Below, in pieces: positions 43,875 to 61,787 of a stretch of 64,000 nt of DNA. The stretch comes from Frateuria aurantia DSM 6220 (GTDB lineage: Bacteria > Pseudomonadota > Gammaproteobacteria > Xanthomonadales > Rhodanobacteraceae): positions 2,305,110 to 2,369,109 of the forward strand of contig NC_017033.1 in the NCBI RefSeq assembly GCF_000242255.2, written 5' to 3'. The notes below the pieces were generated by a model that saw nothing but the letters and a program-made list of their open reading frames with translations, was not told the DNA's origin and did not search any database. Each line of letters starts with the position of its first letter. Position 1 is the stretch's first letter. The translations under genes were made by a program, and so were the position numbers.

Positions 43875-44079
43875 AGCCCGGCCTGACCGGCCCAGCAGGC
43901 CTAAATCAAAGCCATTCGGATCCATGGTCACAGGCTGGATCGCGTATCACGAGGGCACGAATACCGGCCAAACCCCGCGAACGGGCCGGGAAATGCCATA
44001 ATCACTGAGTCGCGTGGTCGCAGTCCGCACCCGTCGGTCCGGCCACGCCCGATATCCACTGGAGAAAAGGAGCCAGCAC

Positions 44080-45057
44080 ATGCATCTCGGTTTGATCGGA
44101 CTAGGCAGGATGGGCGGCAACATCGCCAGGCGATTGATGCGCGATGGCCACTCCGTGGCCGTGTATGACGTCGACGCCAAGGCACGCCAGGCGCTGGCTG
44201 ACGACGGCGCCACCGCCGTCGACTCGCTGGCCGGCTTTCTCGAAGCCCTGCCCGCACCGCGCGCCGTATGGGTGATGGTGCCCGCCGGCGACATCACCGA
44301 AAAGACCGTGCAGGAACTGGCCGGCCTGCTGGAAAAAGGCGACACCATCATCGATGGCGGCAACAGCAACTGGCACGACGACGTGCGCCGCGCCAAGCAG
44401 CTGTCCGAGCAGGGCCTGCACTATATCGATGTCGGCACCTCCGGCGGCGTCTGGGGCCTGGACCGCGGTTACTGCATGATGATCGGCGGCGACAAGGCCG
44501 TGGTGGATCGCCTGGATCCCATCTTCAAGACCCTGGCTCCCGGCATCGGCGATGTCGAAAAGACGCCGAACCGCGAAAAGCACGATCCCCGCGCCGAACT
44601 CGGTTATCTGCATACCGGACCGGCCGGCTCCGGCCACTTCGTCAAGATGGTCCACAACGGCATCGAATACGGTCTGATGCAGGCCTATGCCGAAGGCTTC
44701 GACGTGATGCGCAACCGCAACCAGGCCAGCCTGCCGGAAGGCGAGCGCTTTGACCTGAACATGGCCGACATCGCCGAAGTCTGGCGCCGCGGCAGCGTGG
44801 TCTCGTCCTGGCTGCTGGACCTGTGCTCGATCGCCCTGGCCAAGGATCCGGGCCTGGAAAACTTCTCGGGCTTCGTCAACGACTCCGGCGAAGGCCGCTG
44901 GACCATCGAGGCCGCCATCGAGGAAGCCGTGCCGGCCGAAGTGCTGACCGCCGCCCTGTATACCCGCTTCCGTTCGCGGCAGGAACACACCTATGCCGAA
45001 AAGATGCTCTCGGCCATGCGCCTGGGCTTCGGCGGCCACGTCGAGGGCAAGCAGTAA
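44080..45057 (+). CDS. gnd: 6-phosphogluconate dehydrogenase, short decarboxylating form
   Basis: This 325-residue enzyme converts 6-phosphogluconate to ribulose 5-phosphate and CO2. The N-terminal dinucleotide fold has [16 protein letters not shown]; the substrate site shows [11 protein letters not shown] and the catalytic Lys region [13 protein letters not shown]. It is about 150 residues shorter than E. coli Gnd, matching the YqeC-type short class, many of which prefer NAD. ATG 44080 has AAAGGAG upstream. It is monocistronic here; no zwf or edd gene is near. Confidence 0.93.
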
Positions 45058-45163
45058 CGCGGCTCTGACCGTATCTCGATGCACCTTCGGTGAACGACAA
45101 TCGGCCATTGCGGCCGGTCGTCACTGATCTTCACCGGGAATTAAGCATGGCGGGCCTATTCTC

Positions 45164-45280
45164 TGAATCGTGGATGTCGTGAGGCATTCCTTTCCCACCC
45201 ACGATCCAGGGCTTCCCCTCCCTGCCGTGAACAGATGGATCCCCCAAGGCCCGCAGCTTCCCCTCTGCGGGCCTTTTTTT
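45164..45280 (+). ncRNA. candidate small RNA with twin CTTCCCCT loops (sX13-like)
   Basis: A TATTCT box at 45157-45162 could start a transcript of about 115 nt with three hairpins. Hairpin 1 pairs ATCGTGG (45167-45173) with CCACGAT (45199-45205). Hairpin 2 pairs CAGGG (45207-45211) with CCCTG (45220-45224) and exposes CTTCCCCT. Hairpin 3 (45246-45275) has an 11-bp perfect stem, exposes the same CTTCCCCT and ends in seven T, a textbook terminator. C-rich loops of this kind can pair with Shine-Dalgarno sequences. Size and plan resemble the sX13 RNA of Xanthomonas, from memory and not checked. The known gene upstream, gnd, ends about 100 bp before it. Confidence 0.7.
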
Positions 45281-45456
45281 GTTTCACGATGACTCCAGCA
45301 TCGCATTTCGCTGGACTACGCCAAGGCCCGATACAGCTGGTTTATCCATCACTTAGCCGAGTTCAACCTGGGCCGGTGCTCTCCGAAAATTGGCCGGGCT
45401 TCTCCTCGAGTGGCTCCCGTGCGGCTCCTGGAAACCTGGTTTTCCGAGAAGTCGTC

Positions 45457-46667
45457 ATGTTGATGATCAAGCTCACAAATCCGCAGTCGATGCGGCACGC
45501 CCACCAGACAAGTCCATCGAACTGCGGGACGCCGTGGTGCCTGGCTTCCTGTGCAAGATCACCCTTGCGGGCCACCAAGTGTTCATGCCCCCTACCGTAC
45601 CCACGCCGGCGAGCGCCGTCAGCCAGCCCTGGGCCAGTACGGGGAACTAACGGTCGATCAGGCGCGCACGATGGCGCAGGAGTGGCTGGCCGAGGTACGC
45701 AAGGGTGGCGACCCCAGCGCGGCCAAGAATGCCGCCCGCAAGGCACCGACCATGAAGGAGTTCTGCCACACCTTCATGGAGGACTACTCCAGGCAGCGCA
45801 ACAAGCCCAGCACACAACGCGGCTATCAGGGCGTCATCGACCGCTGCATCATCCCGATCATGGGACGGATGAAGGTGCAGGACGTGAAGCACCCGGACGT
45901 GGCCGCGCTGATGAAGAAACTGGCCTACAAGCAGGCCGAAGCCAACCGCACCTTCGGCGTGCTGCGCAAGATGTTCAACCTGGCCGAAGTGTGGGGACTG
46001 CGCCCGAACGGCACGAATCCGTGCCGCCACGTCCCGACGTACCCGCCCGGCAAGGAAACCCGGCTCATCGTGGACGATGAGCTGGTGCGGATCTTCCGTC
46101 ACCTGGAACACCTGGAGGCGGAAAAACTGGAAAACTACGTCATCCCGCTGGCGATCCGCCTGCAATTCGAGTTTGCCGCACGGCGCTCCGAAATCTGCCC
46201 GCTGGAATGGAGCTGGGTTGATCTGGAGCATCGTCGCGTCGTCTGGCCAGGCAGCAAGACTGGCGGTATCTCCAAGCCCATGAGCGAGGAAGCCTGTCTG
46301 CTGCTTTCGACGGTACCGCAGCTGGACGGCTGCCCCTACGTCCCGCCGTCGCCGCCCGCCGTCGCCGAATGACCCGACCCGGCACATGACCCACGGCGAA
46401 CACTACGGCGGCTGGACGCGCGTGCTCAAGACCGCAGATGTGCCGCACGTTGGCACGCATGGCATCCGCCACCGGGCGACGACCGATATTGCCAAGTCGG
46501 GCGTGCCGACCAAGGTGGGCATGAAGCACACAGGTCACAAGACCGTGGCGATGTTTATGCACGATGTTCATACCGAGGACAAGCCAGTGCGGGATGCGGC
46601 CGAACTGGTGGCGAGTCGGCGGCTGGCGATTACCGGGACATCCCGCTCTATGGAGGTGACAGCATGA
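45457..46667 (+). pseudogene. decayed tyrosine recombinase (phage/island integrase)
   Basis: Integrase sequence is spread over three frames. It begins at ATG 45457 (MLMIKLT), shifts near 45478 to SAVDAARPPDKSIELRD, shifts again in the C run near 45590 to YRTHAGERRQPALGQYG and the SAM-like core, and shifts a third time near 46340-46385 to the C-terminal catalytic part. The first catalytic Arg is present in FAARRSEICPLEW, and the HxxR box in GTHGIRHRATT. The nucleophile segment reads MFMHDVHTED where family members read MFMRYVHTED, so the catalytic Tyr has become Asp. With three frame breaks and no nucleophile it cannot be active. It marks an old integration event just past the small RNA. Confidence 0.88.
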
Positions 46668-47829
46668 CAAGGAAGACGCCCGTGGCAACGCGGAAGCCCG
46701 CCGCCTTACCTGCCGGCTACGCTGGCATCCACGGCGGTATCGTGGAACTGCTGGATGCTGCGCGCCAGGCAGCGGCGCGCAGCGTCAACGCACTGATGAC
46801 AGCCAGCTATTGGGAGATTGGCCGCCGGATCGTCGAGGCCGAGCAGTAAGGCAGACGACGGGCCGGTTACGGCGAGCAGTTGATGGAACGCCTGTCCGCC
46901 GACCTGACGGCACGATTCGGGCGCGGGTTCGGTGTCAACAACCTGGAGAGCATGCGGCGTTTCTTCCTCGCATACCCCCAGCCCGAGATTTCCCAGACAG
47001 TGTCTGGGAAATTGGGACTGAGTCGCTTGCCGAGAAATCCCAGACACTGTCTCGGAAATTCGACCTCTCCGAACTGGCCCAGGTCTTCACCCTGCCGTGG
47101 TCAGCCTATGTCCGGCTGCTGTCGGTCAAAGATGACCATACACGCCAGTTCTACGAGGCCGAGGCGCTGCGCGGCGGCTGGAGCGTGCGCCAGCTTGATC
47201 GACAGATCGGCAGCCAGTTTTACGAACGCACGGCCTTGTCCAAGGACAAGGCGGCGATGCTGCTCAAGGGCTCCATGGCCAAGCCCGAAGATGCGGTCAC
47301 GCCCAACGACGCCATCAAAGACCCGTATGTGCTGGAGTTCCTCGACCTCAAGGACGAGTATTCGGAATCCGACCTGGAAGCGGCCTTGATCCAGCGGCTG
47401 GAAGACTTCCTGCTGGAACTGGGTGAAGGCTTCACCTTCGTCGGGCGGCAACGTCGGCTGCGCATCGACCAGACCTGGTATCGGGTCGATCTGCTGTTCT
47501 TCCATCGCAAGCTGCGCTGCCTGGTCATCATCGACTTGAAACTGGGCAGCCTGACCCATGCCGATGTGGGGCAGATGCACATGTACTGCAACTATGCCAA
47601 GGGGCATTGGGCTTACCCGAACGAGAACCCACCGGCGGGCCTGATCCTGTGCGCCGACAAGAGCCATGCCCTGGCGCGGTATGCGTTGGATGGCTTGCCT
47701 ACCAAGGTGATGGCAGCGAACTACCGGACGGTACTGCCGGACGCCGAATTGCTGCAAAAAGAACTTGAGAACACGCGGCGTCTGCTCGAATCTCGCGGAG
47801 CGCTGTCTCTCAAGGACGACAAGCTGTAG
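46664..47829 (+). pseudogene. decayed YhcG/DUF1016 PD-(D/E)XK nuclease
   Basis: The N-terminal DUF1016 domain starts at ATG 46664, overlapping the integrase stop, and reads ASYWEIGRRIVEAEQ before an in-frame TAA at 46847, where CAA (Gln) is expected. The same frame continues with GYGEQLMERLSADLTARFG to about 47010. There a shift moves the reading to another frame, ESLAEKSQTLSRKFDLSEL, which runs intact to 47829. The C-terminal nuclease core is complete: YRVDLLFFHRKLRCLVIIDLKLG. Intact YhcG-family proteins occur near restriction and other defence loci and are thought to act on DNA. The C-terminal part could still be made if a start existed. Confidence 0.85.
46988..47012. repeat. perfect 25-bp palindrome in the YhcG pseudogene
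   Basis: ATTTCCCAGACA and TGTCTGGGAAAT are separated by one base. A degenerate copy (AATCCCAGACACTGTCTCGG region) follows at 47035-47060, at the point where the reading frame shifts. Confidence 0.9.
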
Positions 47830-48222
47830 CCGTTCGTCCCGGCGTACCGCCTACCTCTCTAAGGAGATCGACACCCTACTGCGGTAAAAGCTCTGGCCTC
47901 CGTTCCTTGATGGCCGCAATGCGGCCTTCAGCGTGGGGCCTAGGCATACCGGAAGCTGCCGCGAACGCCGCATGGCGCGCGAGCTATTAGTCCTTGACGG
48001 GAAATTCGCTGGGAAGGCGGTGATGCACGACGACCAGAGACGCACCGGGCTTGAGCCGCAGGTGCACTTCCACGTATTCAGGCGCTCGGCTAGTGGCAGG
48101 AACTGAAGCGTCAGCAAGCGCGCGTTCGGCCAGCAGCACGCCCACCATCCTATACCGGTCCCGAAGGCCCGGCACGATCCTCTCTGTATGACACTATACG
48201 GCTGTCGGCGGGGAGAACGGCG
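47830..48222. other. unassigned accessory sequence
   Basis: This 390-bp stretch between the YhcG remnant and the reductase gene has one protein-like fragment on the minus strand, 47987-48175 (62 residues, with EYVEVHLRLKPGASLVVVHH). It may be the end of a lost gene. I do not recognise it. Confidence 0.4.
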
Positions 48223-49146
48223 TCATCGAACGCGGCCTACCGCATGCGTGGGAGCGATGGTCTCGGGCCAAAGCAGAGATCGGTGGACCTGGGCGCCTGC
48301 CATGGCTCCATTGCCAACGGCCAGCGACACCGAATGGGGCGCGCGCGCAACGTCACCGCAGGCAAATACGCCAGTCACCGTGGTCTTGCTCTCGGCATCG
48401 GTGCGAACCTGGATACCCATGGGCATCTCTTCCAGCGCGCAGCCCATGGCTTCGGCCAGAGAGCCAGAAGGAGAAGTGCGTGTCGCTGTGAACAGGCCGG
48501 CAAATCGAAGCAGGCGCCCGTCGGCCATTGCGACATCGGCATGCCCTTCGATTCTGACGATAGGTGATTCCTCGATCGTCACGCCCCGACGTTCCAATGC
48601 GGCCCCGTCCTCCTGGCTCAGGTCCACGGCTGCGTTGACGAGCAAGGTCACACTTCCCCAATCGGTCAGCAGTTCGGCCTGGTGGATGGAGATCGGGCTG
48701 CAGCCGACGATGCCAATGCGGCCTTGGCCAAGTTCGTAGCCATGACAGTACGGGCAGTGGAAGATCGACTTGCCCCAGCGCTCGGCGAGCCCCTCGACGG
48801 CAGGCAACTGGTCGGCAACGCCGGTGGCCAGCAGGATGCGGCGGCCATGGTGCGATCCGCCGTCAGACGTCGCGACCGTGAATTCATCCGCCCGCCCTGT
48901 GACGGCTTCGACCCGGCCTTCGAGCCATGTCAGCGTTGGGTAGGCGTCAAGTTGGCGCCGTGCGCTCGCTGCGATCTCGCTGGGCGGCACCCCGTCTTGG
49001 CCGAGAAAACCATGTGAATGGCTGGCGAAGCGGTTGCGCCGCTCTCCTGCATCGATCACCAGCACGGCCCGGCGCGCCCGCACCAGTTGCAGGGCCGCTG
49101 CCATCCCCGCATAACTCCCGCCGATGACGATAACGTCGTAGTGCAT
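48223..49146 (-). CDS. thioredoxin-reductase-like FAD/NAD(P) oxidoreductase
   Basis: This 307-residue flavoprotein has the FAD-binding GGSYAGMAAALQL at the N-terminus, a redox-active CPYC in KSIFHCPYCHGYE near 132, the second dinucleotide fold (GRIGIVGCSP) and the C-terminal FAD signature TGVFACGDVARAPHSVSLAVGNG. It resembles TrxR-like enzymes that reduce dedicated partners rather than thioredoxin. GAGGAG lies seven bases before ATG 49146. The gene lies two bases after the Rrf2 gene, so they form an operon. The partner is unknown. Confidence 0.87.
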   Translation of the reverse strand: MHYDVIVIGGSYAGMAAALQLVRARRAVLVIDAGERRNRFASHSHGFLGQDGVPPSEIAASARRQLDAYPTLTWLEGRVEAVTGRADEFTVATSDGGSHHGRRILLATGVADQLPAVEGLAERWGKSIFHCPYCHGYELGQGRIGIVGCSPISIHQAELLTDWGSVTLLVNAAVDLSQEDGAALERRGVTIEESPIVRIEGHADVAMADGRLLRFAGLFTATRTSPSGSLAEAMGCALEEMPMGIQVRTDAESKTTVTGVFACGDVARAPHSVSLAVGNGAMAGAQVHRSLLWPETIAPTHAVGRVR

Positions 49147-49148
49147 GG

Positions 49149-49592
49149 TCAACTCCTCTTGTGTCGTGCAGCTGCATGCCGGCGCGCGAAGTCGGCGGCC
49201 AGATCAGCAAGGGTGATTTCCGCAAACCGCTTGAGAAGCAGCGCCTCTGCCTCTGCCAACGTGCCTTCGAGCGCGGTATTCACCACCTGCTCGACCAGGC
49301 AATCCGGGGCTTCGTTGCGGTTGCCGATGGCAAACATCGCGGGCTCGCCCAGCGCTTCGTGCAACTGCCGCAGGGTGATGGAGCCAAGGTCGGCATGGAT
49401 GCGCCATCCACCCGCGTGGCCTCGTTCCGAGGTCACGATGCCCGCTTGTCGCAGATAACCCATGGTGCGCCGGACGACGACCGGATTGGTGACCAAGCAT
49501 TGCGCCAGGGTTTCCGAAGTGACGGGACCCTCCTGCTCGGCCATGTGCAGCAGCGCATGCAGGACGGAGGACAGCCGGCTATCACGATTCAT
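49149..49592 (-). CDS. Rrf2-family transcriptional regulator
   Basis: This 147-residue winged-helix regulator has the Rrf2 pattern MNRDSRLSSVLHALLHMAE, the recognition helix TNPVVVRRTMGYLRQAGIV and the wing RGHAGGWRI. Only two cysteines are present (AQCLV, PDCLV) rather than the three-Cys iron-sulfur motif of IscR/NsrR, so it is probably a thiol or other redox sensor. It heads the operon with the reductase. ATG 49592 starts the homology; the longer frame to 49691 does not. Confidence 0.88.
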   Translation of the reverse strand: MNRDSRLSSVLHALLHMAEQEGPVTSETLAQCLVTNPVVVRRTMGYLRQAGIVTSERGHAGGWRIHADLGSITLRQLHEALGEPAMFAIGNRNEAPDCLVEQVVNTALEGTLAEAEALLLKRFAEITLADLAADFARRHAAARHKRS

Positions 49593-50350
49593 GTAACTAA
49601 TGATGTTTCGTATTGAGCTGTGTGTCAAGGCAAGACAGTTGCTGAGGTCACCGATCTGGATGGTTGATCCGGGCCTGCACATGCTGCGCACTTGCCGACA
49701 GCATGTGCGTGGCCGAGTGGGCGCGGGCGCCGCCGACAGGCTGACCTTTACATGCCAGGCCAGCCTTCAAAGCAATCTCGACGCGCCATGTCGTGCTGCA
49801 GGCGCAGGGCGAGGCTGGCAAAGCGCCGACACTGATTCCGTTGGTGGCGATCCCTCGAAGCGGCCCAAGGTAGAGCCAAATCCGTGCCCTATTTGGACTT
49901 GCGGCCACCAGACTGTTTTCACCGAACGCCTGACGCCAGCCATCCTTGTCCGCGATCGGCTTGTCCCGGCCCTGGTCTCCGACACCGAACATCCATGCCC
50001 CTTGCCTGCGAGCCAGATTGGCAGCGTCTCGGAATCGGGAGTCGAGGCAGACAGCGGCACCGCTGTTCACGCCAGCGCGGCGCCAGCCTGGCCAGCCAGG
50101 CAGCAACCATGCTCTTGTCGGCCAAGCCCGCTCCATAGCGCGAATCTACGTGAACCGAAGCCGCCAGACCATCCGAAGCCCCCTCAACATGCCTGCAATT
50201 CATACAAACGTTTGAAGTATACTCAAGCGCATGCCGTCGCCCGGACCGGCGTTCGGGCCTATCGCGCCGTCGCGGCCACGGCTGTCGAACGAAGTTCGAT
50301 CAAGTACGATCAGGACAGCCGACACGTCCTGACCAGCAAAGGAGTGGGTT
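49593..50350. other. accessory intergenic stretch, no intact gene
   Basis: About 750 bp between the Rrf2 regulator and the fatty-acid operon. The first 20 bases hold the Rrf2 promoter side (AACTAATGATGTTTCG). A minus-strand frame at 49648-50136 reads protein-like in its middle (CLDSRFRDAANLARRQGAWM) and may be a remnant of a mobile-element gene, but I cannot name it. The last 150 bp contain the promoter and operator of the fatty-acid operon. Confidence 0.45.
50205..50214. promoter_or_regulatory. CAAACGTTTG palindrome upstream of the fatty-acid operon
   Basis: A perfect 10-bp palindrome lies directly upstream of a good -10 box, TATACT at 50218-50223, about 135 bp before the reductase start. 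Its place between the expected -35 and -10 suits a repressor. TetR-type fatty-acid regulators such as PsrA bind related CAAAC/GTTTG half-sites. Confidence 0.5.
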
Positions 50351-51664
50351 ATGAGTGATCGTTATCTTCGTTTCGTGGAAAGCGGTTTCGGACGCTGGTT
50401 CAGCCGCAAGGCCGGGCTGCCCCAACCCGTGCAACTGCTGCGCGCCGCTGCCGGCGAGCCCAGGCTGCCGACCTTGCTGGGCGGCAGCGCTGACAGTCCT
50501 CTGCAAGCCAGCCTGAGGGCCCAGCTGGCGGCCATGAATCTGCCGGATGCCCCCTACGCCCCCAAGGTCCACGCACTGGTGTTTGACGCCAGCGGCCTGA
50601 CATCCGTTGAAGCCCTCGCCGAGCTGTACCGTTTTTTCCACACGCATGTGAAACGGGTCGCCAGCAATGGCCGTATTCTGGTGCTCGGCCTGCCGCCGGA
50701 ACAGGCCACGGATGAATCCGTCCGGATCGCGCAGCGCGCCCTGGAAGGCTTTGTCCGCTCGGTCGGCAAGGAACTGCGCCGCGGCATCACCGCCCAGCTG
50801 CTGTATGTGGACCCGGCCGACCCGGCAGCCATCAACAGCAGCCTGCGGTTCTTCCTGTCCTACCGCTCGGCCTATGTATCAGGACAGGTCGTGCGGATCG
50901 GCCCGCCCCCGGCCGCGGCCGTCCCCGCCACCGATCCGGCCCGGCCCCTGCAAGGCAAACGCGCCCTGGTCACCGGCGCTTCGCGCGGCATCGGCAAGTC
51001 CATCGCCCAGGTATTGGCCCGCCAGGGCACCGAACTGGTGGCTCTGGATGTGCCTGCGGCCGAAAACGGGCTGCGGGAAATCGCCCATCGTACCGGCGGT
51101 CAATACGTGGCGCTCGACATCACCGCCGCCGATGCCGGCGCGCAGCTGCTGAAGCATGGCCCCTTCGATATCGTGGTCCACAATGCCGGCATCACCCGCG
51201 ACCGGACCTTGGCCAAGATGAGCGAGGCCGAATGGTCCAGCGTCATGGCCGTAAATCTGCTGGCGCCGCAACGCCTGACCGAAGCCTTGCTGCAAGGTGA
51301 CGGCCTCAAGCCCCAGGCCGCCGTAGTCTGCGTTTCATCGATCTCGGGCATTGCCGGCAATCTGGGCCAGACCAACTACGCCGCCTCCAAGGCCGGCATC
51401 ATCGGTCTGGTGCAGTCATTGGCTCCACGCCTGGCGGCCATCGGAGGCAGCATCAATGCCGTGGCGCCGGGCTTTATCGAAACCGAGATGACCGCCAAGA
51501 TTCCGCTGGGCATCCGGGAAGCCGGCCGTCGTCTGAATTCCATGTCGCAGGGCGGCCTGCCCGTCGATGTGGCCGAAACCATCGCCTGGCTGGCCGATCC
51601 CGCCTCCCGCGGCGTCAACGGCCAGATCGTCCGCGTCTGCGGCCAAAGCCTGCTCGGAGCCTGA
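50351..51664 (+). CDS. two-domain 3-ketoacyl-CoA/ACP reductase (FabG4-like)
   Basis: This 437-residue SDR protein has a degenerate flavodoxin-like N-terminal domain (1-195) and a full C-terminal SDR domain. The NADP motif is TGASRGIGKS near 216, the catalytic Ser in VSSISG near 326 and YxxxK in NYAASKAGI near 342. The layout matches high-molecular-weight FabG (FabG4). It reduces 3-ketoacyl thioesters or, in reverse, oxidises 3-hydroxyacyl-CoA. The stop overlaps the next ATG (TGATG). With the MaoC hydratase and thiolase downstream it makes a near-complete beta-oxidation or chain-remodelling module. Confidence 0.9.
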   Translation: MSDRYLRFVESGFGRWFSRKAGLPQPVQLLRAAAGEPRLPTLLGGSADSPLQASLRAQLAAMNLPDAPYAPKVHALVFDASGLTSVEALAELYRFFHTHVKRVASNGRILVLGLPPEQATDESVRIAQRALEGFVRSVGKELRRGITAQLLYVDPADPAAINSSLRFFLSYRSAYVSGQVVRIGPPPAAAVPATDPARPLQGKRALVTGASRGIGKSIAQVLARQGTELVALDVPAAENGLREIAHRTGGQYVALDITAADAGAQLLKHGPFDIVVHNAGITRDRTLAKMSEAEWSSVMAVNLLAPQRLTEALLQGDGLKPQAAVVCVSSISGIAGNLGQTNYAASKAGIIGLVQSLAPRLAAIGGSINAVAPGFIETEMTAKIPLGIREAGRRLNSMSQGGLPVDVAETIAWLADPASRGVNGQIVRVCGQSLLGA

Positions 51665-52557
51665 TGATGCAGCCCATCCATGCTTTTCCACATCGCGTGC
51701 AAGCCGTCGATCTGCCGCTGCCGCGCAAGCAGTTGCTGTGGCGCGCGGTCCGCAGCAGCCGCAAGCATTCCGGGCCGGAGGCCGAGCTGCCGCTGACCGT
51801 GCTGGAACAGGCTTCGGCACCGATACGCGCCAGTGAAGTCGCCGATTACGCCCAGGTCTGTCAGCTGCCCTCGACCACCTTGGTACCCTTGACCTATCCG
51901 CATATCCTGGCCTTTCCGCTGCAGATGCAATTGCTGATCGAGCCGGACTTCCCCTATGCCGCCGTCGGCCTGGTCCATATCGCCAACACCATACGCCAGC
52001 ATCGCCCGCTGGCCAGCGGGCAGGCCTTGAAGCTGCAGGTGCAGGCCACTCGCCAGCTGGCCCATCCCAAGGGACAGCTGATCGTGCTGAAGACCGAAGC
52101 GGCCCTCGCCGGCGAGCTGGCCTGGGAAAGCGAGAGCGTGTATCTGTCACGCAGCGTGCGCCATCCGCAGGGGCCGGCCTTTCCTTCCGAGCCCGCCAGC
52201 AGCGAAACCCTCACCGAGCTTGAGTCATGGACGCTGCCGGCCGATCTGGGCCGGCGATATGCCAAGGTGGCCGGCGACTACAACCCCATCCACCTGTATC
52301 CATGGACGGCGCGTCTGTTCGGCTATCCCCGCGCCATCGCCCACGGCATGTGGAGCAAGGCACGTGCGCTGGGAAGCTTGCTGCCCAAGGCCCAGCTGGC
52401 CACGGCCGAAGTCAGTGTCCGCTTCAAGACGCCGGCCCTGCTGCCGGGCAAGGCCAGCCTGCTGGCCACGGCCGATCATCAGCATTTCGCGGTCCACCGG
52501 GCCGGCACCGAGGTGCCTCATCTCTCCGGCCATCTGCAAGGAGTTGCCACCGTATGA
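51664..52557 (+). CDS. MaoC-family enoyl-CoA hydratase
   Basis: This 297-residue double hot-dog protein is a likely R-specific enoyl-CoA hydratase. The C-terminal hot-dog carries the hydratase signature AGDYNPIHLYPWTARLFGY with catalytic Asp and His, then AIAHGMWSKARAL. The N-terminal hot-dog lacks the residues and is structural. It is translationally coupled on both sides (TGATG with the reductase, ATGA with the thiolase). Confidence 0.9.
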   Translation: MMQPIHAFPHRVQAVDLPLPRKQLLWRAVRSSRKHSGPEAELPLTVLEQASAPIRASEVADYAQVCQLPSTTLVPLTYPHILAFPLQMQLLIEPDFPYAAVGLVHIANTIRQHRPLASGQALKLQVQATRQLAHPKGQLIVLKTEAALAGELAWESESVYLSRSVRHPQGPAFPSEPASSETLTELESWTLPADLGRRYAKVAGDYNPIHLYPWTARLFGYPRAIAHGMWSKARALGSLLPKAQLATAEVSVRFKTPALLPGKASLLATADHQHFAVHRAGTEVPHLSGHLQGVATV

Positions 52558-53852
52558 GTTCGCCTTCATTTGCGCCCCCCGCGGCCCGCCGGGTCGCTAT
52601 TCTGGGCGGCAACCGGATTCCGTTTGCCCGCGCCAATACCGCCTATGCCCAAGCCAGCAATCAGGACATGCTGACCGCCGCGCTGCAAGGCCTGGTGGAT
52701 CGCTTCAAGCTGAGTGGCGAACGGCTGGGCGAATTCGCCGCCGGTGCCGTGCTCAAGCATTCGCGCGATTTCAATCTGGCCCGCGAAACTCTGATGTCGA
52801 CCACCCTGTCGCCGGAAACCCCGGCCTACGACATCCAGCAGGCCTGCGGCACCGGCCTGGAAGCGGCCATCCTGGTTGCCAACAAGATCGCCCTCGGCCA
52901 GATCGAGGTCGGCATTGCCGGCGGTGTCGACACGGCCTCGGATGCGCCCATCGCCATCAACGAGAAGCTGCGCAAGATCCTGTTGAAAGCCAACCGGGCC
53001 CGCGATCTCGGCGGCCGGCTGAAAGCCTTTTCGGCACTGCGTCCCGATATGTTCTTCAAGCCGCAGCTGCCCCGCAACGGCGAGCCGCGCACCGGCCTGT
53101 CGATGGGCCAGCACTGCGAATTGATGGCCAAATACTGGGATATCCCGCGTGCCGCCCAGGATGAACTGGCGCTGCGCAGCCACCACAATCTGGCGGCGGC
53201 TTACGATCGCGGCTTCTTCGACGACCTGATCACCCCGTTCCGCGACCTGAAGCGCGACAACAATCTGCGGGCGGACAGCACGCTGGAGAAGCTGGCCAGC
53301 CTGAAACCCGCCTATGACCGCCAAGCCGGCACGCTGACCGCCGGCAATTCCACGCCGCTGACCGATGGCGCCTCCACCGTGCTGCTGGCCAGCGAGGAGT
53401 GGGCCAAGGCCCATGACCTGCCGGTGCTGGCCTGGCTGCGCACCGGCGAAACCGCCGCCGTGGACTTTGCCAGCGGCAAGGAAGGTCTGCTGATGGCACC
53501 GGCCTATGCGGTGCCTCGGATGCTGGCTCGGGAAGGCCTGAGCCTGCAGGATTTTGACCTGTACGAGATCCACGAAGCCTTTGCCGCCCAGGTACTGTGC
53601 ACGCTGAAGGCCTGGGAGTCGCCGGATTTCGCGCGCAACCGGCTGGGCCTGGAGGCGCCGCTGGGCGCGATCGACCAGAGCAAGATGAACATCAACGGCG
53701 GCTCGCTGGGTACCGGCCATCCGTTTGCCGCGACCGGCGGACGGATTCTGGCCGGCCTGGCCAAAGAGCTGGCCCAGCGTGGCAGCGGTCGCGGACTGAT
53801 TTCGATCTGTGCCGCCGGCGGTCTGGGCGTGGTCGCCATCATCGAGCGCTGA
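52554..53852 (+). CDS. fadI: acetyl-CoA C-acyltransferase (thiolase, FadI-like)
   Basis: This 432-residue thiolase cleaves 3-ketoacyl-CoA. The nucleophilic Cys lies in DIQQACGTGLEAA near 95. The C-terminal catalytic His and Cys are in NINGGSLGTGHPFAATGGR and ISICAAGGLGV. NEAFA-type EIHEAFAAQ is present. The start overlaps the MaoC stop (ATGA). The last 204 bases are repeated in a diverged copy at 55692-55895. FadI-type length and residues suggest long-chain substrates, by family. Confidence 0.92.
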   Translation: MSSPSFAPPAARRVAILGGNRIPFARANTAYAQASNQDMLTAALQGLVDRFKLSGERLGEFAAGAVLKHSRDFNLARETLMSTTLSPETPAYDIQQACGTGLEAAILVANKIALGQIEVGIAGGVDTASDAPIAINEKLRKILLKANRARDLGGRLKAFSALRPDMFFKPQLPRNGEPRTGLSMGQHCELMAKYWDIPRAAQDELALRSHHNLAAAYDRGFFDDLITPFRDLKRDNNLRADSTLEKLASLKPAYDRQAGTLTAGNSTPLTDGASTVLLASEEWAKAHDLPVLAWLRTGETAAVDFASGKEGLLMAPAYAVPRMLAREGLSLQDFDLYEIHEAFAAQVLCTLKAWESPDFARNRLGLEAPLGAIDQSKMNINGGSLGTGHPFAATGGRILAGLAKELAQRGSGRGLISICAAGGLGVVAIIER

Positions 53853-53873
53853 GTGCCACCGGCGTCGATCTGA

Positions 53874-54803
53874 TCAGCCCTGCGCCTGCAACGGAGGTCT
53901 GCGCCTTCGTTGCAGGTCTGGCCGCGCGGGCCGCCTTGCCTTGGCATCCCTGCCGGGCGGGCACCCGAACATGCGGACATAGTCGCGACTGAACTGCGAA
54001 GCGCTGCGGTAGCCGGTGGCATAGGCAGCCACTTCGGCCTTGAGCCACTCTCCCTGCATCAAGCGCCGCGCCTCCAGCAGCCGCAGCTGCTTCTGGTACT
54101 GGATCGGAGTCAGGGACGTGACAGCCTTGAACTGCCGATGAAAGGCCGAGGGGCTGAGGCCTGCCACCGCAGCCAGTGCCTGGATGCCCAAAGGCCGGGC
54201 GAACTGCAGACGCAACAGATGGATGGCCTGCAGGATGCGTCCTCGCCGCGTATGCGCCAACATCATCGCCGCGATTCCAGGCCCCTGCTCCCCCGCCAGA
54301 AGTTCATAGCAGATTTCGCGCAACACCAGCGGCGCCACCACAGGCACAGCCTGAGGCCGATCCAGCAGGCGGACCAGTCGCGTCAGCGAATCCGTCAGCA
54401 ATGATCCTGCCGAAATGACACGCGCCCCGCCCTCAAAGGCCGGCGATTCACCGGGGGGCACAGGCATCTGCTCCAGAACCTCCTGCAAAATCCGCGGACA
54501 GAGCTCCAGCACCAGTCCCAGAAACGGCTGCTGCGGCGTCGCCCTGACAACCTGCCCCACCGAAGGCATCTCCACGGTCACGAGCAAGGCCTCGCCGGCA
54601 CGATAATGATGCTGCTCGCTGCCGAAGCTGGTCCATTTCTCACCCTGAGCCACCACGCACAGCGCGGGTTTCGCGATGCGATGACTGGGGGTCCGGGCCT
54701 GTGCGCTGCGAAGCAACAGCAGCCCGTCAATCGCCGTGGCCAGAAACGGCTGATCCGACAGCCCATCGGCATGGGCCGCAATGGCGGCGACCAGATTGTT
54801 CAT
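53874..54803 (-). CDS. AraC-family transcriptional regulator
   Basis: This 309-residue regulator has an N-terminal AraC_N domain (about 1-170) and two helix-turn-helix motifs in the C-terminal 100 residues (GIQALAAVAGLSPSAFHRQFK and VAAYATGYRSASQFSRDYVRMFGCPP). The very basic tail (RRPARPDLQRRRRPPLQ) is unusual. GAGGG precedes ATG 54803. It is divergent from the SDR gene, its likely target, and both lie inside the duplicated thiolase tails. Confidence 0.9.
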   Translation of the reverse strand: MNNLVAAIAAHADGLSDQPFLATAIDGLLLLRSAQARTPSHRIAKPALCVVAQGEKWTSFGSEQHHYRAGEALLVTVEMPSVGQVVRATPQQPFLGLVLELCPRILQEVLEQMPVPPGESPAFEGGARVISAGSLLTDSLTRLVRLLDRPQAVPVVAPLVLREICYELLAGEQGPGIAAMMLAHTRRGRILQAIHLLRLQFARPLGIQALAAVAGLSPSAFHRQFKAVTSLTPIQYQKQLRLLEARRLMQGEWLKAEVAAYATGYRSASQFSRDYVRMFGCPPGRDAKARRPARPDLQRRRRPPLQAQG

Positions 54804-54928
54804 CTTGCCCTCAATCAAAACCTCGTACCAGTCAGGCAGGAACAGGCAAGAAATGACCAGTTCACGGCACCGAAGACCGAAGAAGATGCCACATAGTGCA
54901 AGAACTGCAAACACGAACCGGAGTTCTC

Positions 54929-55690
54929 ATGCCCTCTTCCAACCGAATCGCCCTGGTCACCGGCGGCAGCCGCGGGCTGGGCCGCAATACCTGCGAACAA
55001 CTTGCCAGGCGTGGTCTGGATGTCATCCTTACCTATCACCGACGCGACGACGAAGCCACGGAGGTGGTATCGCGTCTTCGCGCCCAGGGCCGTCAGGCGG
55101 CAGCCCTGCCTCTGGACTGCGGTGACAGCACCTTGTTTTCAGGATTTGCCCAGGCCGTGCAGTCGACGCTGACGGAGTTTGGCGCAAGCCGGTTCGATGT
55201 ACTGGTCAACAATGCCGGCATCTCTCACCATGCCGCCTTCTCCGATGCCCTGGAGCAAGATCTGGATGCGCTTTATCGGATCCATTTCAAAGGCGTCTAT
55301 CTGCTGACCCAGCAACTGCTGCCCTTGCTGAGCGATGGCGGCCATATCGTGAACATCTCTTCCGGCCTGACCCGCATCATCTATCCCGGCAGCAGCGCCT
55401 ATGCCGCCATGAAAGGGGCGGTGGAGATACTCAGCCGGTATCAGGCCAAGGAACTGGGTCCGCGCCGGATCAGGGTCAACGTGGTCGCACCCGGCGCCGT
55501 CCAGACCGACTTCAGCGGCGGCATCGTGCGTGACGACCCGGTGGTGAACCGACGCATCTCGGCTGTGACAGCCCTGGGCCGTCCCGGCCTGCCCGAGGAT
55601 ATCGGGCCGATGATCGCCTCTCTGGTCTCCGAGGACAACCGATGGATCAATGCGCAGCGGATCGAGGTCTCCGGCGGCATGGCGATCTGA
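54929..55690 (+). CDS. short-chain dehydrogenase/reductase
   Basis: This 253-residue classical SDR has TGGSRGLGRNT near the N-terminus, NNAG, the catalytic Ser in VNISSG, and YxxxK in YAAMKGAV. GGAG lies six bases before ATG 54929. AraC-linked SDRs of this type often act on quinones, aldehydes or sugars; the substrate is not predictable. The stop codon is followed by one base and then the duplicated thiolase tail. Confidence 0.9.
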   Translation: MPSSNRIALVTGGSRGLGRNTCEQLARRGLDVILTYHRRDDEATEVVSRLRAQGRQAAALPLDCGDSTLFSGFAQAVQSTLTEFGASRFDVLVNNAGISHHAAFSDALEQDLDALYRIHFKGVYLLTQQLLPLLSDGGHIVNISSGLTRIIYPGSSAYAAMKGAVEILSRYQAKELGPRRIRVNVVAPGAVQTDFSGGIVRDDPVVNRRISAVTALGRPGLPEDIGPMIASLVSEDNRWINAQRIEVSGGMAI

Positions 55691-55691
55691 G

Positions 55692-55895
55692 CTCGAAGCC
55701 CCGCTGGGCGCGATCGATGACAGCAAGATAAACATCAATGGCGGCGCGCTGAGTACCGGCCATCGGTTTGCCGCGACCGGCGGACGGATGCTGGCCGGCC
55801 TGGCCAAGGAGCTGGCCCAGCGTGACCGCGGTCGCGGACTGATTTCGATCTGTGCCACCGGTGGTCTGGGCGTGGTCGCCATCGTTGAGCGTTGA
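55692..55895 (+). pseudogene. duplicated 3' end of the thiolase gene
   Basis: This 204-bp piece copies the last 67 codons plus stop of the thiolase gene at 53649-53852, with about 20 base differences by hand count (about 90 percent identity). It reads LEAPLGAIDDSKININGG through GLGVVAIVER with no stop, but has no start or N-terminus. The GHPF box is altered to GHRF. The two tails form direct repeats around the AraC/SDR pair. Confidence 0.95.
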
Positions 55896-56080
55896 GCGGC
55901 TGGCGTGGCCGCCACCACGCCGACCATGGACTTGCGACCGGCAGCAGGCCTTCGGGCCCAGCCGACCTCAAGCCTTGGTCAAAATATCCCTTGCCGCAGT
56001 TCCTGATTCGGGAATGCTTATGCCCCAGCCGTGTCAGCCGGGACAACGTCGACAACTCGCCCTCAAAAGCTTGCGCCCCC

Positions 56081-56998
56081 TCAATCGACGCGATGACCAT
56101 GCTCCCACGGACTTCCATCCAGCTGAATGGTCAGATGCTCAATGAACCGGCGAAGCTTCAACGATACATGCCGCTTGCTCGGAAACACCGCGTAAATGGC
56201 CAACTCCGCTGTCGCGTGATCCGGCAACAATTGGCGAAGCAGTCCACGGGCGATATATTCGCCAAACACGAAACTTGGGCCATACGCCACCCCGGCACCG
56301 GCCAGCGCTGCCGCCAGCAGCATCTGCATATCGTCTGCGGCGAGCCGGATCGCGCCTTCCAGCCGATGACTCCGGCCGGCCGGATCCGTGATGCTCCAAT
56401 CCCCCAGAGAGATGGCTTCGGTGAAGGCAAGCCGAGGTGCATGGCGGAGTGTTTCGAGACTGGCAGTTTCACCCAGCCGTGCCAGCAACGCAGGCGCTGC
56501 GCAGAACACCATCCGGCATTCAGCAAGTCGCCTCGCGACGAGATCGGAATCGCCCAGACGTCCGATGCGGATGGCCACGTCAATGTCCTCGGCCAGCAGA
56601 TCGACATAGCGGTCACTTAAAAGAGTTTCCACCGAAACCTCAGGATACTCGGCAAGAAAACTGGCCACCACGGGCCCCAGATGCAGTGCAGCGAAGGTCG
56701 TCGGCGCGGCCACCCGCAGCCTTCCTCGCACCTGCTGTTGCGTCTCCTGCGCCTCGCAATTCGCCTCCTCGTAGTCATCAAGCAGTCGCTTGCAGCGCCG
56801 GTAGTAAGTCTGCCCCACCTCAGTCAAGGCCAGCCTGCGGGTGCTGCGCTGAAGTAGTCGAGCCTGCAGCTGTGCTTCGATAGCAGACACATGCTTACCC
56901 GCCATCGATGGTGACAAGCCATGTCGCCGTGCGGCCGCAACCAGGCTGCCCTCTTCGACAGCCGTGACGAACACGGCCATGCTCTTTAATCGATCCAT
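56081..56998 (-). CDS. LysR-family transcriptional regulator
   Basis: This 305-residue regulator has the N-terminal winged helix (MDRLKSMAVFVTAVEEGSLVAAARRHGLSPSMAGKHV) and a periplasmic-binding-like effector domain. ATG 56998 gives the family start; ATG three codons earlier is possible. It is divergent from the hydrolase gene, with about 120 AT-rich bases between, including ATCAGATCTATATCATC, a likely regulator binding region. Confidence 0.9.
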   Translation of the reverse strand: MDRLKSMAVFVTAVEEGSLVAAARRHGLSPSMAGKHVSAIEAQLQARLLQRSTRRLALTEVGQTYYRRCKRLLDDYEEANCEAQETQQQVRGRLRVAAPTTFAALHLGPVVASFLAEYPEVSVETLLSDRYVDLLAEDIDVAIRIGRLGDSDLVARRLAECRMVFCAAPALLARLGETASLETLRHAPRLAFTEAISLGDWSITDPAGRSHRLEGAIRLAADDMQMLLAAALAGAGVAYGPSFVFGEYIARGLLRQLLPDHATAELAIYAVFPSKRHVSLKLRRFIEHLTIQLDGSPWEHGHRVD

Positions 56999-57127
56999 AA
57001 CTTTCATCCGATAGCACTGTTATCAGATCTATATCATCAAGAATGGATTATCAATCATGGGGAACGGGTTCAAGCTGATGCGATCGTCAGGCACGGCCTG
57101 ACAGACACAGCGACCAGGACTTGAAAT

Positions 57128-57916
57128 ATGAAAATCACATGCAACGGGATCAATATCCACGTCAACGCACAAGGCGAAAATGGCCAGGCACTGGTCTTTC
57201 TGCACTACTGGGGGGGCTCGTCACGTACTTGGAAGCACGTCCAGAGTGTACTCAGTCCGACGTTCCGGACTTTCGCCCTCGATCACCGCGGCTGGGGCGA
57301 GTCTGATGCCCCCGCCGAAGGCTATGGACTGACCGAGCTGGCCGATGATGCCATGGGCGTGATCGCCGCTCTGGGCCTGTCGTCTTATGTACTTGTCGGC
57401 CATTCAATGGGCGGCAAGGTCGCTCAGCTGATAGCCTCAAGACGCCCTTCAGAGCTTGCCGGGCTTATTTTGATTGCACCCGCTCCGCCATCGCCGATGG
57501 CCTTGCCCGAAGCCGCACGTACTGCGATGACCCATGCCTATGACAGCCGTGCCTCGGTGGAAGCCACCCTCGACCAGGTGCTGACGGCCCGGCCGATTTC
57601 CAGGGAGGATCGCGAACAAGTCATCTCAGACAGCCTGCGTGCTGCGGCAGCGGCAAAACATGCGTGGCCGATGGCGAGCAGTCAGCAAGATATCAGCAAA
57701 CAAGTGGAGCACATCGAAGTCCCCACTCTGGTCGTGGCCGGCGAGCTGGATCGCGTCGATCCCCCCGAAATACTGCGCCAAAGCTTACTCGCGCACCTGC
57801 CACATGCGGTCATGGAGGTTCTGCCGGGAACCGGACATCTGGCCATGCTGGAAGCGCCTGACGCAGTGGCTGCAGCCATCGAAAACTTCTGCCAACGCCT
57901 GCCAGCAGTCGCTTGA
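57128..57916 (+). CDS. alpha/beta hydrolase
   Basis: This 262-residue cytoplasmic alpha/beta hydrolase has the nucleophile elbow GHSMGGKV near residue 93, the acid in AGELDRVDPP near 205 and the histidine in GTGHLAMLEAP near 240. It is the presumed target of the divergent LysR regulator. The substrate is unknown. A hairpin at 58031-58059 terminates it. Confidence 0.88.
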   Translation: MKITCNGINIHVNAQGENGQALVFLHYWGGSSRTWKHVQSVLSPTFRTFALDHRGWGESDAPAEGYGLTELADDAMGVIAALGLSSYVLVGHSMGGKVAQLIASRRPSELAGLILIAPAPPSPMALPEAARTAMTHAYDSRASVEATLDQVLTARPISREDREQVISDSLRAAAAAKHAWPMASSQQDISKQVEHIEVPTLVVAGELDRVDPPEILRQSLLAHLPHAVMEVLPGTGHLAMLEAPDAVAAAIENFCQRLPAVA

Positions 57917-58030
57917 TGTCCGCCAGCTCCCCCATCCGTTGAGCAATGCCTGCCAAGGACCGGCTCCACTACCCCGGTGCGCCATGCCGGGGAGTACGAA
58001 GCGATACGATAGTGCGGAGTCCAGCCGGCA

Positions 58031-58059
58031 GCAGACCAGGCCCTCGAAGCCTGGTCTGC
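58031..58059. terminator. terminator hairpin between convergent genes
   Basis: GCAGACCAGGC and GCCTGGTCTGC pair over a 7-base loop between the hydrolase and the acyltransferase stop codons. No T run follows. Confidence 0.65.
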
Positions 58060-58113
58060 ACGGCATCCAGCACGCCTGCGGAAGTCTCCGCATCGCGGTC
58101 GGCCTGCTCCGGA

Positions 58114-59898
58114 TCAGGCGGCCGACGACGGCGCCTGGCCGAATCCTGTCAAGCCGGCCTTGGCCGCCTCGGCCAGCGCGGCGGCGCGTTCAGCGCCCAG
58201 ATAACGAACCCGCTTGGAAGGCTTCAGATTGGCCAGATCAAGCATCACCAGGCCATCGACGCAACCGGAAAAATCCGGATCCTCGCCGAAATCCAGAAAC
58301 TGCACGCCTTGCGGATCGACCAGGTCGACATACTGGCGATAAAGCACCGGCAGGGTTACGCCGAGAGCATCGAGGTGGTTCTTCAATTTGCCCAGACCGG
58401 CGGCCGGATCCAGTCCGTCCAACGCCTGATTGACGCCCTCTACCACCTCCGGCGACACCACGAATGGCTGTCTGGCCTTGGCCAGGCCGCTGACTCCGAA
58501 ATAATGGCGATGCGCGGCAGCAATCCATTCGCGCGCCTCGCGCGGCAGACTGACCGACATGCTGACCGGACCGAATACGTAACGGACTTCGGCATGTCGC
58601 TGCAGATACAGGCCGATACCCTGCCACAGTTGGTCCAGCGCCCGCGAACGCCAGAAAGCCGGTGCGATGAAGCTGCGGCCCAGCTCCATGCCCTGCTCCA
58701 GCCGCGATTCAAGAGCCGGTGAATAATTGAAGAGGCTGGCGCTGTACAGCGCGGAAATTCCACCGCGAGCCAGCAGTTTGCCGCCATGACCGAGTCGATA
58801 CGAGCCGACGATGCGCAGACTGACCGGGTCCCACAGCAGCAGATGCTCGTAATGCACATCGTAAGCGTCGAGGTCGCGCAGCATGCCGGTGCCCTCGCCG
58901 ACCCGCCGGAAGGTCAGCTCGCGCAGACGTCCTATTTCGCGCAGAACCACACTGTCGGCGGCACCGGGAAACAGCCACAGCTGCTTGCCGTCCGGCACGG
59001 TCGAGAGCTTCTCGCCCTGGGCCATCAGTTCGGCGGCGACCTGATCCGCCCGCTCGGGCAAGGCCAGCGGCGCCTGACCACCGAAGATCAGGCCGCGATG
59101 ACGGCCGACACGATAGACATGGCGACGCATCAGGCGGGCCGCCCGCAATACCGAGTCACCGGATTTCTGGCGCAGCTCGGCCGCATCGATGGCCCGCCCC
59201 ACGCTGATGCTGAGTCGACGACTGACCGGCGAAGTCGCTTCGCGCGGCAGCATCGCCGTGCTCAGCGGCTTGGCCAGCAGCGAAAGACCGTAGAACATCG
59301 CCGAATTCCGCGCGCCGATATGGATCGGCAGCACCTGCGCCCCCGTCTTGAAGGCAATCCGCGCGAAGCCGTCCGACCAGCGACCGTCGCGAACGCCGCC
59401 GGCCCGCATCCGCGAGACCTCGCCGGCCGGGAAGATGATCAGCGCCTGCCCCTGGTCCAGGCAACGATAGATAGCCCGCAGACGCGAGCCCGCCCCCTTG
59501 CTGAACACATCCACCGGCAGCAGCAGTCGTTTCAGCGGGGGCACCGCCGCCAGCCAGTCGTTGCCCAGGATCTTCACATCGCGACGCACCGAACCGACCA
59601 GCTGCAGCAAGGTCAGGGCATCGCTCATGCCCAGCGGATGATTGGCCACGATCAGCAACGGCCCCTCCACCGGAATGTTTTCCAGCTCGCGCGGATTGAC
59701 GCGATGACCGACGCCCAGGCATTCCAGCCCGCGATCAACGAAATCAAAACCCTCGGCCGCGCCGCATTCGCGCAGGATGTGATTGAACCTGTCTTCGTCC
59801 GCCAGCCGTTCCAGCATCCCCAACACCGGGCGCTTGATACGGGGGTAGCGCGCAAGCCAAGGCATCCGCTCCATCAAGGTCTGTTCCACTTTGAACAT
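58114..59898 (-). CDS. two-domain acyltransferase, OlsF-like (PlsC + OlsB-type GNAT)
   Basis: This 594-residue protein fuses two acyltransferase domains. The N-terminal PlsC-type domain (about 60-260) has the catalytic VANHPLGMSDAL and the FPAGEVSRM motif. The C-terminal domain (about 305-560) has the OlsB/GNAT pattern ELTFRRVGEGTG, DAYDVHYEHLLLWD, IVGSYRLG and FWRSRALDQLWQGIG. This arrangement is that of OlsF, which makes ornithine lipids in one polypeptide. The identity is by architecture only. GGAGG lies just before the ATG. Confidence 0.8.
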   Translation of the reverse strand: MFKVEQTLMERMPWLARYPRIKRPVLGMLERLADEDRFNHILRECGAAEGFDFVDRGLECLGVGHRVNPRELENIPVEGPLLIVANHPLGMSDALTLLQLVGSVRRDVKILGNDWLAAVPPLKRLLLPVDVFSKGAGSRLRAIYRCLDQGQALIIFPAGEVSRMRAGGVRDGRWSDGFARIAFKTGAQVLPIHIGARNSAMFYGLSLLAKPLSTAMLPREATSPVSRRLSISVGRAIDAAELRQKSGDSVLRAARLMRRHVYRVGRHRGLIFGGQAPLALPERADQVAAELMAQGEKLSTVPDGKQLWLFPGAADSVVLREIGRLRELTFRRVGEGTGMLRDLDAYDVHYEHLLLWDPVSLRIVGSYRLGHGGKLLARGGISALYSASLFNYSPALESRLEQGMELGRSFIAPAFWRSRALDQLWQGIGLYLQRHAEVRYVFGPVSMSVSLPREAREWIAAAHRHYFGVSGLAKARQPFVVSPEVVEGVNQALDGLDPAAGLGKLKNHLDALGVTLPVLYRQYVDLVDPQGVQFLDFGEDPDFSGCVDGLVMLDLANLKPSKRVRYLGAERAAALAEAAKAGLTGFGQAPSSAA

Positions 59899-60001
59899 GA
59901 CCGCCTCCTAGAAACTTGCCATCTATCCTTGCCGGCGATTATGACAGCAGGATGATGAAAAAAATCATGAATTACACCATGTTGTCGAAAAAGCCGGCGG
60001 C

Positions 60002-60613: not shown

Positions 60614-60736
60614 CACTCTCCACCCCTGGCCATCACGTCCTGCGGATGCCGGTCAATCACCAAAACCCGGGACCATCGCCTGCGACGATGGCAGCCCGCC
60701 TCTTTCAAGCACCGCGTTCAGACCGTCATCGACAAC

Positions 60737-61057
60737 TCAGGGCACCGCCAGTACATCCGCCATCATCCTGCCCAGCTCGCCGGCCTGATGCAGTTCCTCG
60801 ATCACGTCGCAGCCCCCCATCAATTCGCCCTGCACGAACAGCTGGGGAAAGGTCGAGAGATTGGAGAAATGCGGCAAAGCCGAGCGGATCTGGGGGTCGG
60901 CCTGCACATTGACCGTCTGGAAACGGGCCCCGGTTGCCGTCAGCGCCTGCGCCGCCCGGGCGGAAAAATCGCACATCGGCCATGCCGGCGTCCCCTTCAT
61001 GAAGAGCACGACGGGATGTTCGACGAGGATGGCTTTGATACGCTCGTTGACGTCCAT
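60737..61057 (-). CDS. grxD: monothiol glutaredoxin with a CDFS active site
   Basis: This 106-residue Grx4-family protein normally binds and hands on [2Fe-2S] clusters with glutathione through a CGFS motif. Here the site reads KGTPAWPMCDFSARAAQAL, with Asp30 in place of the usual Gly; the codon is GAT. Other family features are kept: the NLSTFPQLFVQGELMGGCDVIEEL region that binds glutathione. Whether CDFS still holds a cluster is unclear. It is divergent from sodB. Confidence 0.92.
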   Translation of the reverse strand: MDVNERIKAILVEHPVVLFMKGTPAWPMCDFSARAAQALTATGARFQTVNVQADPQIRSALPHFSNLSTFPQLFVQGELMGGCDVIEELHQAGELGRMMADVLAVP

Positions 61058-61759: not shown

Positions 61760-61787
61760 TCCCGGCAAGGCAGGGTTTCGACCCGCG

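Follow-up and report, generated by a model that had tools for sequence, protein, structure and literature searches.

A predicted small-RNA gene with twin C-rich loops

Behind a 6-phosphogluconate dehydrogenase gene of Frateuria aurantia DSM 6220, two neighbouring hairpins present the same C-rich loop—raising the question of whether this locus encodes a regulatory RNA and, if so, of what kind. We examined it within a window of 64,000 nt (the whole stretch of DNA that was analysed) and in related genomes. The two perfect stems reported in the first-pass annotation (45207-45224 and 45246-45275), each closed around CTTCCCCT, were confirmed letter by letter. A scan of both strands for perfect stems of at least 5 bp with loops of 6-12 nt returned them as the only identical-loop hairpin pair starting no more than 100 nt apart in the window, and no such pair arose in 5,000 dinucleotide shuffles of positions 45100-45290. 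The 8-mer CTTCCCCT alone was mildly over-represented (5 occurrences in the window against 1.8 expected; at least 5 in 3 of 100 shuffles). The minimum-energy fold of 45164-45282, at -44.8 kcal/mol (z = -3.38), contains both hairpins and was equalled by 1 of 200 shuffles. Seven T (45274-45280), two of them within the terminator stem, end the element (Table 1).

Both the terminator and a -10-like position upstream are kept in relatives. The TATTCT box aligns with this conserved position, which supports the previously proposed start near 45168 and gives a predicted transcript of about 113 nt, while inspection of the promoter alignment by eye revealed no convincing -35 hexamer. Further upstream lies a conserved box that reads CATTAACgAACC in many relatives and ATTAA in the window.

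Table 1. Predicted RNA gene of the window and its parts, with the copies of the short sibling branch (locus coordinates).
Feature	Coordinates	Strand	Remarks
Small-RNA gene, predicted	45168..45280	+	about 113 nt; start placed from the -10-like box
ATTAA, upstream box, window version	45140..45144	+	alignment of 26 loci with flanks
TATTCT, -10-like box	45157..45162	+	aligned with TACATT and similar boxes in relatives
5' hairpin UGUC-GUGA-GGCA, GNGA loop	45175..45186	+	helix 1 paired in 100% of cells, 31 relatives
UCCC, invariant, between hairpins	45193..45196	+	column identity 1.0, 31 relatives
Hairpin 2, C-rich loop CTTCCCCT	45207..45224	+	loop 45212-45219; CCCC in loop in 31/31 relatives
Letters of hairpin 2	CAGGG 45207-45211; CTTCCCCT 45212-45219; CCCTG 45220-45224	+	direct reading
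GATGGA (GANGGA linker motif)	45234..45239	+	conserved across relatives
Terminator hairpin and U tract	45246..45280	+	loop CTTCCCCT 45257-45264; helix paired in 100% of cells, 31 relatives
Letters of terminator	AAGGCCCGCAG 45246-45256; CTTCCCCT 45257-45264; CTGCGGGCCTT 45265-45275	+	direct reading
Short copies	L158 3908-3979 (-); L159 4046-4117 (+); L228-L233; L160 3095-3166 (-)

Conservation and covariation among relatives

Besides the window copy, a DNA search covering the F. aurantia genome and 60 relatives brought up a single diverged one (75% identity), and a DNA search of 233 family genomes gave matches at E ≤ 0.01 in 33 genomes, F. aurantia included. Inspection covered 29 of the remaining 32 matches and retained 25 (L070, L071, L072 and L074 were rejected; G162, G034 and G244 were left out). 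In addition, a pattern scan of named genomes returned 28 stretches, 16 titled Rhodanobacter and 5 titled Dyella, with Rhodanobacteraceae bacterium ZG21-1 (L092) and Rhodanobacter sp. A1T4 (L089) among the stretches found. GANGGA and a U tract were present in 27 and missing from one, a Streptomyces contig; the upstream ATTAA failed in 2 of the 27, namely L075, where the stretch ends and the upstream side is short, and L098, which reads GTTAA. One contig (L091, CAJCJD010000120.1) is titled Candidatus Eremiobacteraeota and has RNA letters identical to those of G133, a genome of the same family as the window; its title may be wrong.

We then aligned 31 relatives without the window copy (alignment A2)—24 of the 25 kept loci, L069 being dropped as the same RNA as L068, and, from the 27 named members, 7 that added new sequences, the remaining 20 being repeats of included ones as judged by eye—and built model R1 from this alignment. 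The A2 consensus has three elements: a GNGA-looped 5' hairpin, hairpin 2 in two parts, and the terminator. Pairing holds in 95.5% of 708 cells, and both sides have changed in 13 of 23 pairs, including 2 of the 4 pairs of helix 1 in the 5' hairpin. Cells changed on both sides numbered 57 against a shuffled mean of 15.1 (0/500 as high) and 4 to 17 in slid-partner controls; further pair types were less striking (28 against 24.1 in shuffles, 9/500). Column identity reaches 0.65 in the promoter block and 0.71 in the RNA against 0.27-0.33 in the flanks, and conservation is thus confined to promoter and RNA.

Searched with R1, from which it had been excluded, the 64-kb window gave a match of 76.2 bits (45173-45278; E = 2.6e-16 for the 64 kb), the second-best match scoring 10.8 bits. 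The relatives in R1 had been collected either through their similarity to the window or with a pattern derived from such relatives, so this match speaks chiefly for family membership and less for the gene itself; independent evidence comes from the covariation. The window copy carries all parts of the R1 family—the GNGA hairpin, UCCC, the hairpin with the C-rich loop, GANGGA and the terminator—and is diverged, with 3 of 6 outer stem-2 pairs non-standard and, in predicted folds, a longer stem (45167-45173/45199-45205) that competes with the GNGA hairpin. The R1 match, the covariation and the conservation of promoter and RNA together support the small-RNA gene proposed earlier, and we regard a conserved structured RNA gene at this locus as close to certain.

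The initial reading of the identical loops as a sign of selection on the loop stands for the CCCC cores and falls for the exact 8-mer, which is not common to the relatives: CTTCCCCT occupies loop 2 (hairpin 2) in 2 of 31 and loop 3 (terminator) in none. UCCCCU is found in loop 2 of 26/31 and in loop 3 of 24/31 relatives, and in both loops of 19/31. The shared 8-mer is a peculiarity of the window copy, and the CCCC core is the common feature. As for loops being kept while stems covary, the pattern is clear in hairpin 2, whose outer stem covaries at a column identity of 0.60 around the constant CCCC, and less clear in the terminator, where the stem itself stands at 0.87, the whole-loop columns at 0.63 and CCCC is present in 30/31. 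The cores are predicted to be unpaired, with mean probabilities of 0.94 (loop 2) and 0.96 (loop 3) and values above 0.5 in 31/32 and 32/32 sequences, respectively.

GANGGA, with N being U, C or A, recurs in 31/31 rows of A2, 43/43 model matches of alignment A3 and 27/28 pattern-scan loci, the pattern behind the latter two counts allowing only these three bases. Predicted folds leave its GGA paired for the most part, with a mean probability of 0.32 of being unpaired and values above 0.5 in 2/32. We rejected an additional helix between UCCC and GANGGA: the partners of GGA are scattered (the UCCC region exceeds 0.5 in 7/33), and by eye the variable N follows no partner.

Relation to sX13 and other known RNAs

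The available parts of the report on Xanthomonas sX13 (PMC3771888) describe an RNA that represses messages with G-rich motifs near their start, for which Hfq is dispensable, and that is always located beside polA and has an unstructured 5' end; C-rich-loop RNAs acting on ribosome sites are also cited there for Staphylococcus and Helicobacter. With 115 nt and three stable stems bearing C-rich loops, sX13 resembles the window RNA in length and in its C-rich loops in stable hairpins, and the Rfam sX13 model (RF02232) aligns with the window RNA from end to end, if only at 14.9 bits—far below the cut-off of 50. The window RNA follows the 6-phosphogluconate dehydrogenase gene, not polA. Of the three apical loops of four or five C that define sX13, it shows two, the loop of its 5' hairpin lacking C4—a partial agreement that points neither way. 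The same genome contains a separate sX13-like RNA (39.2 bits, itself under the cut-off) behind polA, the latter identified by a Pfam DNA_pol_A match of 540 bits. This polA-linked RNA also displays CTTCCCCT in a predicted hairpin, but R1 gives it only 18.9 bits, and it is one of six R1 matches of 15.0-23.6 bits in this genome that were inspected and rejected.

The characteristic motifs of the two families differ as well. Among 29 sX13-model matches (of 30 loci, L010 being left out), the 5' GNGA hairpin, counted strictly as four Watson-Crick pairs within the first 30 bases, occurred in none and GANGGA in two, whereas the window family has both; intermediates linking the two families were not seen. 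The window RNA is refuted as a positional orthologue of sX13, and we give descent from it, as an orthologue or a recent duplicate, only the slimmest of chances. The homology to sX13 suggested in the first-pass annotation was accordingly abandoned, and its alternative wording, a distinct relative, survives in the sense of a functional analogue only. A second sX13-model match in the F. aurantia genome (G000:C1:149358-149492, 36.8 bits) was discarded, as it overlaps the end of a reading frame and bears no resemblance to sX13.

Other known RNAs were compared in the same manner. At gathering level, Rfam yielded only three tRNAs in the window and nothing in eight loci with relatives; extended to E 0.05 in six more loci, it gave four matches, none on the RNA. 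A candidate SAH riboswitch was observed in L149 (1548-1623, +), at 36.8 bits against a cut-off of 37. The highest-scoring sub-threshold Rfam match to the window RNA was ar14/NfeR1 (RF02344; 25 bits against 58.8). NfeR1 carries the same C-rich anti-Shine-Dalgarno motif in hairpins with differing stems, according to the accessible portion of its report (PMC10746234). It is alphaproteobacterial, with CCUCCUCCC three times in its hairpins and no GANGGA in the available part of its description, and the motif comparison was negative: the window loops read CTTCCCCT and those of relatives mostly UCCCCU, not three times CCUCCUCCC. The Burkholderia anti-hemB RNA (RF02837) was likewise rejected at 21.2 bits against 49.5, with an alignment that spans hairpin 2 to the terminator and stops short of the 5' hairpin.

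We found no description of the family in the literature on small RNAs of Rhodanobacter, Rhodanobacteraceae, Dyella and Luteibacter and on C-rich-loop RNAs, a survey mainly of freely accessible papers. In kind, the molecule looks like a known type, the C-rich-loop repressor RNA; what appears new are its GNGA-looped 5' hairpin, its constant GANGGA and the siblings, described below, whose promoter sites differ—none of which, like the invariant UCCC and the varied locations, had been noted at first. C-loop RNAs are known from alphaproteobacteria and Xanthomonas as well as the Staphylococcus and Helicobacter cases cited above, to which the present locus adds a covariation-supported family in a little-studied lineage, beside sX13.

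Proposed mode of action and candidate targets

By analogy with these RNAs, we lean towards a model in which the RNA acts through its C-rich loops on G4-bearing messages. It would be expressed as a trans-acting small RNA from its own promoter and released at an intrinsic terminator; the stems would hold the two C-rich loops open, and a restricted group of messages, bearing G4 stretches close to their start codons, would be recognised by pairing that begins in these loops, so that ribosome entry would be blocked as published for sX13 and NfeR1. In experiments on those two RNAs, as given in the available parts of the reports, pairing occurs between C-rich loops and G-rich sites where ribosomes enter, without any need for Hfq (PMC3771888, PMC10746234).

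Which messages might be addressed was explored in the window. Among 46 predicted starts—a small sample with uncertain start codons—positions -20 to -4 contained GGAG in 12 cases and GGGG in none, against 2.2 and 1.0 in in-gene controls. The C4 loops thus do not match the common Shine-Dalgarno sites of the window, contrary to the original idea of a fit to such sites in general, and a narrower set of G4-bearing targets, as for sX13, is most likely the better fit. Three other AGGGGAAG sites in the window were checked by eye, none being at a clear start; one precedes a doubtful GTG frame (4299-4841, minus strand) by 24 bases. Further points against the proposed mechanism are that the window copy retains only one half of the outer stem 2, that its 5' part may adopt another fold, and that conservation of the terminator loop, taken whole, falls short of that of its stem (0.63 and 0.87, respectively). 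As for the remaining parts, protection or anchoring of the RNA is the probable role of the 5' GNGA hairpin, and GANGGA, which loop pairing leaves unexplained, probably contacts a protein or acts as a second seed.

GANGGA also invites a different interpretation, in which the main role would be titration of RsmA/CsrA and the C loops would be secondary. The motif fits the RsmA/CsrA consensus, ANGGA with a free second base; it is present in every row of A2 and A3, and the genome has a CsrA gene (93.4 bits). Nonetheless, we consider this role unlikely: each RNA offers one conserved GGA site, predicted to be mostly paired and outside the conserved hairpin loops, and titration leaves the C-rich loops unexplained. 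RsmU of Xanthomonas and other RsmA/CsrA-binding RNAs have several GGA, whereas the window family has one and C-rich loops instead, and several GGA exposed in loops, the mark of a sequestering RNA, were not found in the window RNA. In the accessible part of its report, RsmU is described with three to four GGA, and RsmA still bound after all four had been changed (PMC7694677). Pairing through the C-rich loops remains our preferred reading, with the conserved GANGGA posing a concrete, testable question of its own.

Distribution within the order and class

Applied to the 233 Rhodanobacteraceae genomes, R1 gave matches at E ≤ 0.001 in 75, from 11 of 26 genera. Eight of these carry the short branch described below; G034, G093, G166 and G177 were rejected by eye, and G014, G140, G141, G163 and a weak second match in G127 stayed outside the inspected set. 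Matches of at least 39.7 bits comprised 64 places in 58 genomes of 6 genera, letter-by-letter reading covering part of these genomes, and the addition of G155 by eye brings the count to 59/233. Across 398 genomes of the order, a second model built from R1 matches (R2) found 43 genomes at E ≤ 1e-4, all within Rhodanobacteraceae, and R1 found 47 at E ≤ 0.001, two of them outside the family (G280 and G441); by eye, both of the latter look like sX13. E-values of both models are rough. Finally, a search of 321 genomes from the class recovered the F. aurantia genome alone, apart from one 38-bit match (G523) rejected by eye. Since the multi-genome searches score few candidates per genome, all these absences are soft.

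Sibling branches behind different promoters

The window copy belongs to the main branch, with the CATTAAC-box type of promoter. The second copy in the F. aurantia genome (G000:C1:1607657-1607756, minus strand; locus L147, 3658-3757, minus strand; 54.1 bits) sits behind GAGAATGATTATCATATAGA, an arrangement seen at this one locus. As GAGAATGATTATCATATAGA is a palindrome resembling a Fur box, this copy could be an iron-controlled sibling, judging from its sequence. By eye, the L147 copy also shows an extra upstream hairpin with a C-rich loop.

A further branch of about 72 nt comprises nine copies (Table 1) from one genus, that of the named Rhodanobacter genomes, and its terminator loop is not C-rich. 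Some 30 nt upstream, 8 of the 9 short copies have TGTGA-N6-TCAC, presumably a Clp/CRP-like site, against 1 of 26 main-branch loci; the L160 copy (28.1 bits) has neither this site nor a C4 loop. It is conceivable, and we propose it tentatively, that, inside a single bacterial family, one RNA core has been wired to CATTAAC-box, Clp/CRP-like and Fur-like promoters, the promoter-RNA unit occupying different sites in different genomes, with GANGGA as a constant second function. If true, several signals would feed one common translational brake, and GANGGA might serve, for example, as a protein dock. The siblings behind different promoters, together with their varied sites, form a natural series on the re-wiring of a regulatory RNA core.

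Genomic sites and mobility

Forty-one loci chosen from the matches (L035 and the second L148 copy being left out) fell into 27 gene neighbourhoods. This count depends on the grouping rule, by which loci are joined when they have one frame in common (45% identity or more, same side and strand, no farther off than about 4 kb). The RNA of the window lies 115 nt behind the 6-phosphogluconate dehydrogenase gene on the same strand and has a strong terminator at its end, as would a 3'-end leftover or the plain terminator of that gene, with no RNA of its own. We hold this to be very improbable, because the whole RNA recurs in other neighbourhoods and the conservation spans promoter and RNA, beyond the terminator.

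The interval between glutamine synthetase and an ntrB-kind histidine kinase (Pfam for G184; the name ntrB was assigned by reading) houses the RNA in G184, G190, G194 and G212, and likewise in G109 and G115. In G000, G019, G181, G187, G191, G202, G203, G204 and G213, both flanking genes were found and the RNA was elsewhere; in eight of these nine, a 145-152-base stretch matches at the other place with 77-86% identity, the RNA of G000 being below the threshold of this search. The two flanking genes are on different contigs in G203 and G213. Such differing sites may reflect relocation or the loss of old duplicates. The RNA was also observed directly upstream of an ntrB-like kinase gene in L169, L170 and L164, and behind glutamine synthetase in the first two. 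In rhizobia, ntrBC is silenced by NfeR1, whose loops are similar, and the window family may have a nitrogen link as well; the ribosome site of ntrB, inspected by eye in three loci, offered nothing convincing as a target.

The variety of sites also bears on whether the conserved stretch might be no regulator at all but a short mobile element, or else an attachment site used by the adjacent integrase. A first integrase piece starts only 272 nt downstream of the RNA, and G124 carries the RNA twice, at a distance of 2.6 kb and close to a transposase frame (HTH_Tnp_1). We nevertheless judge this explanation improbable: the conserved unit consists of promoter and RNA, no terminal repeats were seen in the alignment, no direct repeats of the RNA of at least 18 bases occur in 44000-64000, and the covariation of the RNA structure counts against a mobile element.

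The two copies of G124 (L148, 2996-3103 and 5627-5734, minus strand) are near-identical and share about the same 70 upstream bases, and their duplication is likely linked to an insertion element. In the window, pieces of a tyrosine integrase lie in two frames (45551-46372 and 46386-46667) with the Pfam domains Arm-DNA-bind_3, Phage_int_SAM_3 and Phage_integrase, and look like a decayed element; a protein with a YhcG/DUF1016 nuclease domain (46810-47829) is found beside these remains. Further downstream, a 205-base direct repeat (53649-53853 and 55692-55896) occurs as two 90% identical copies 2 kb apart.
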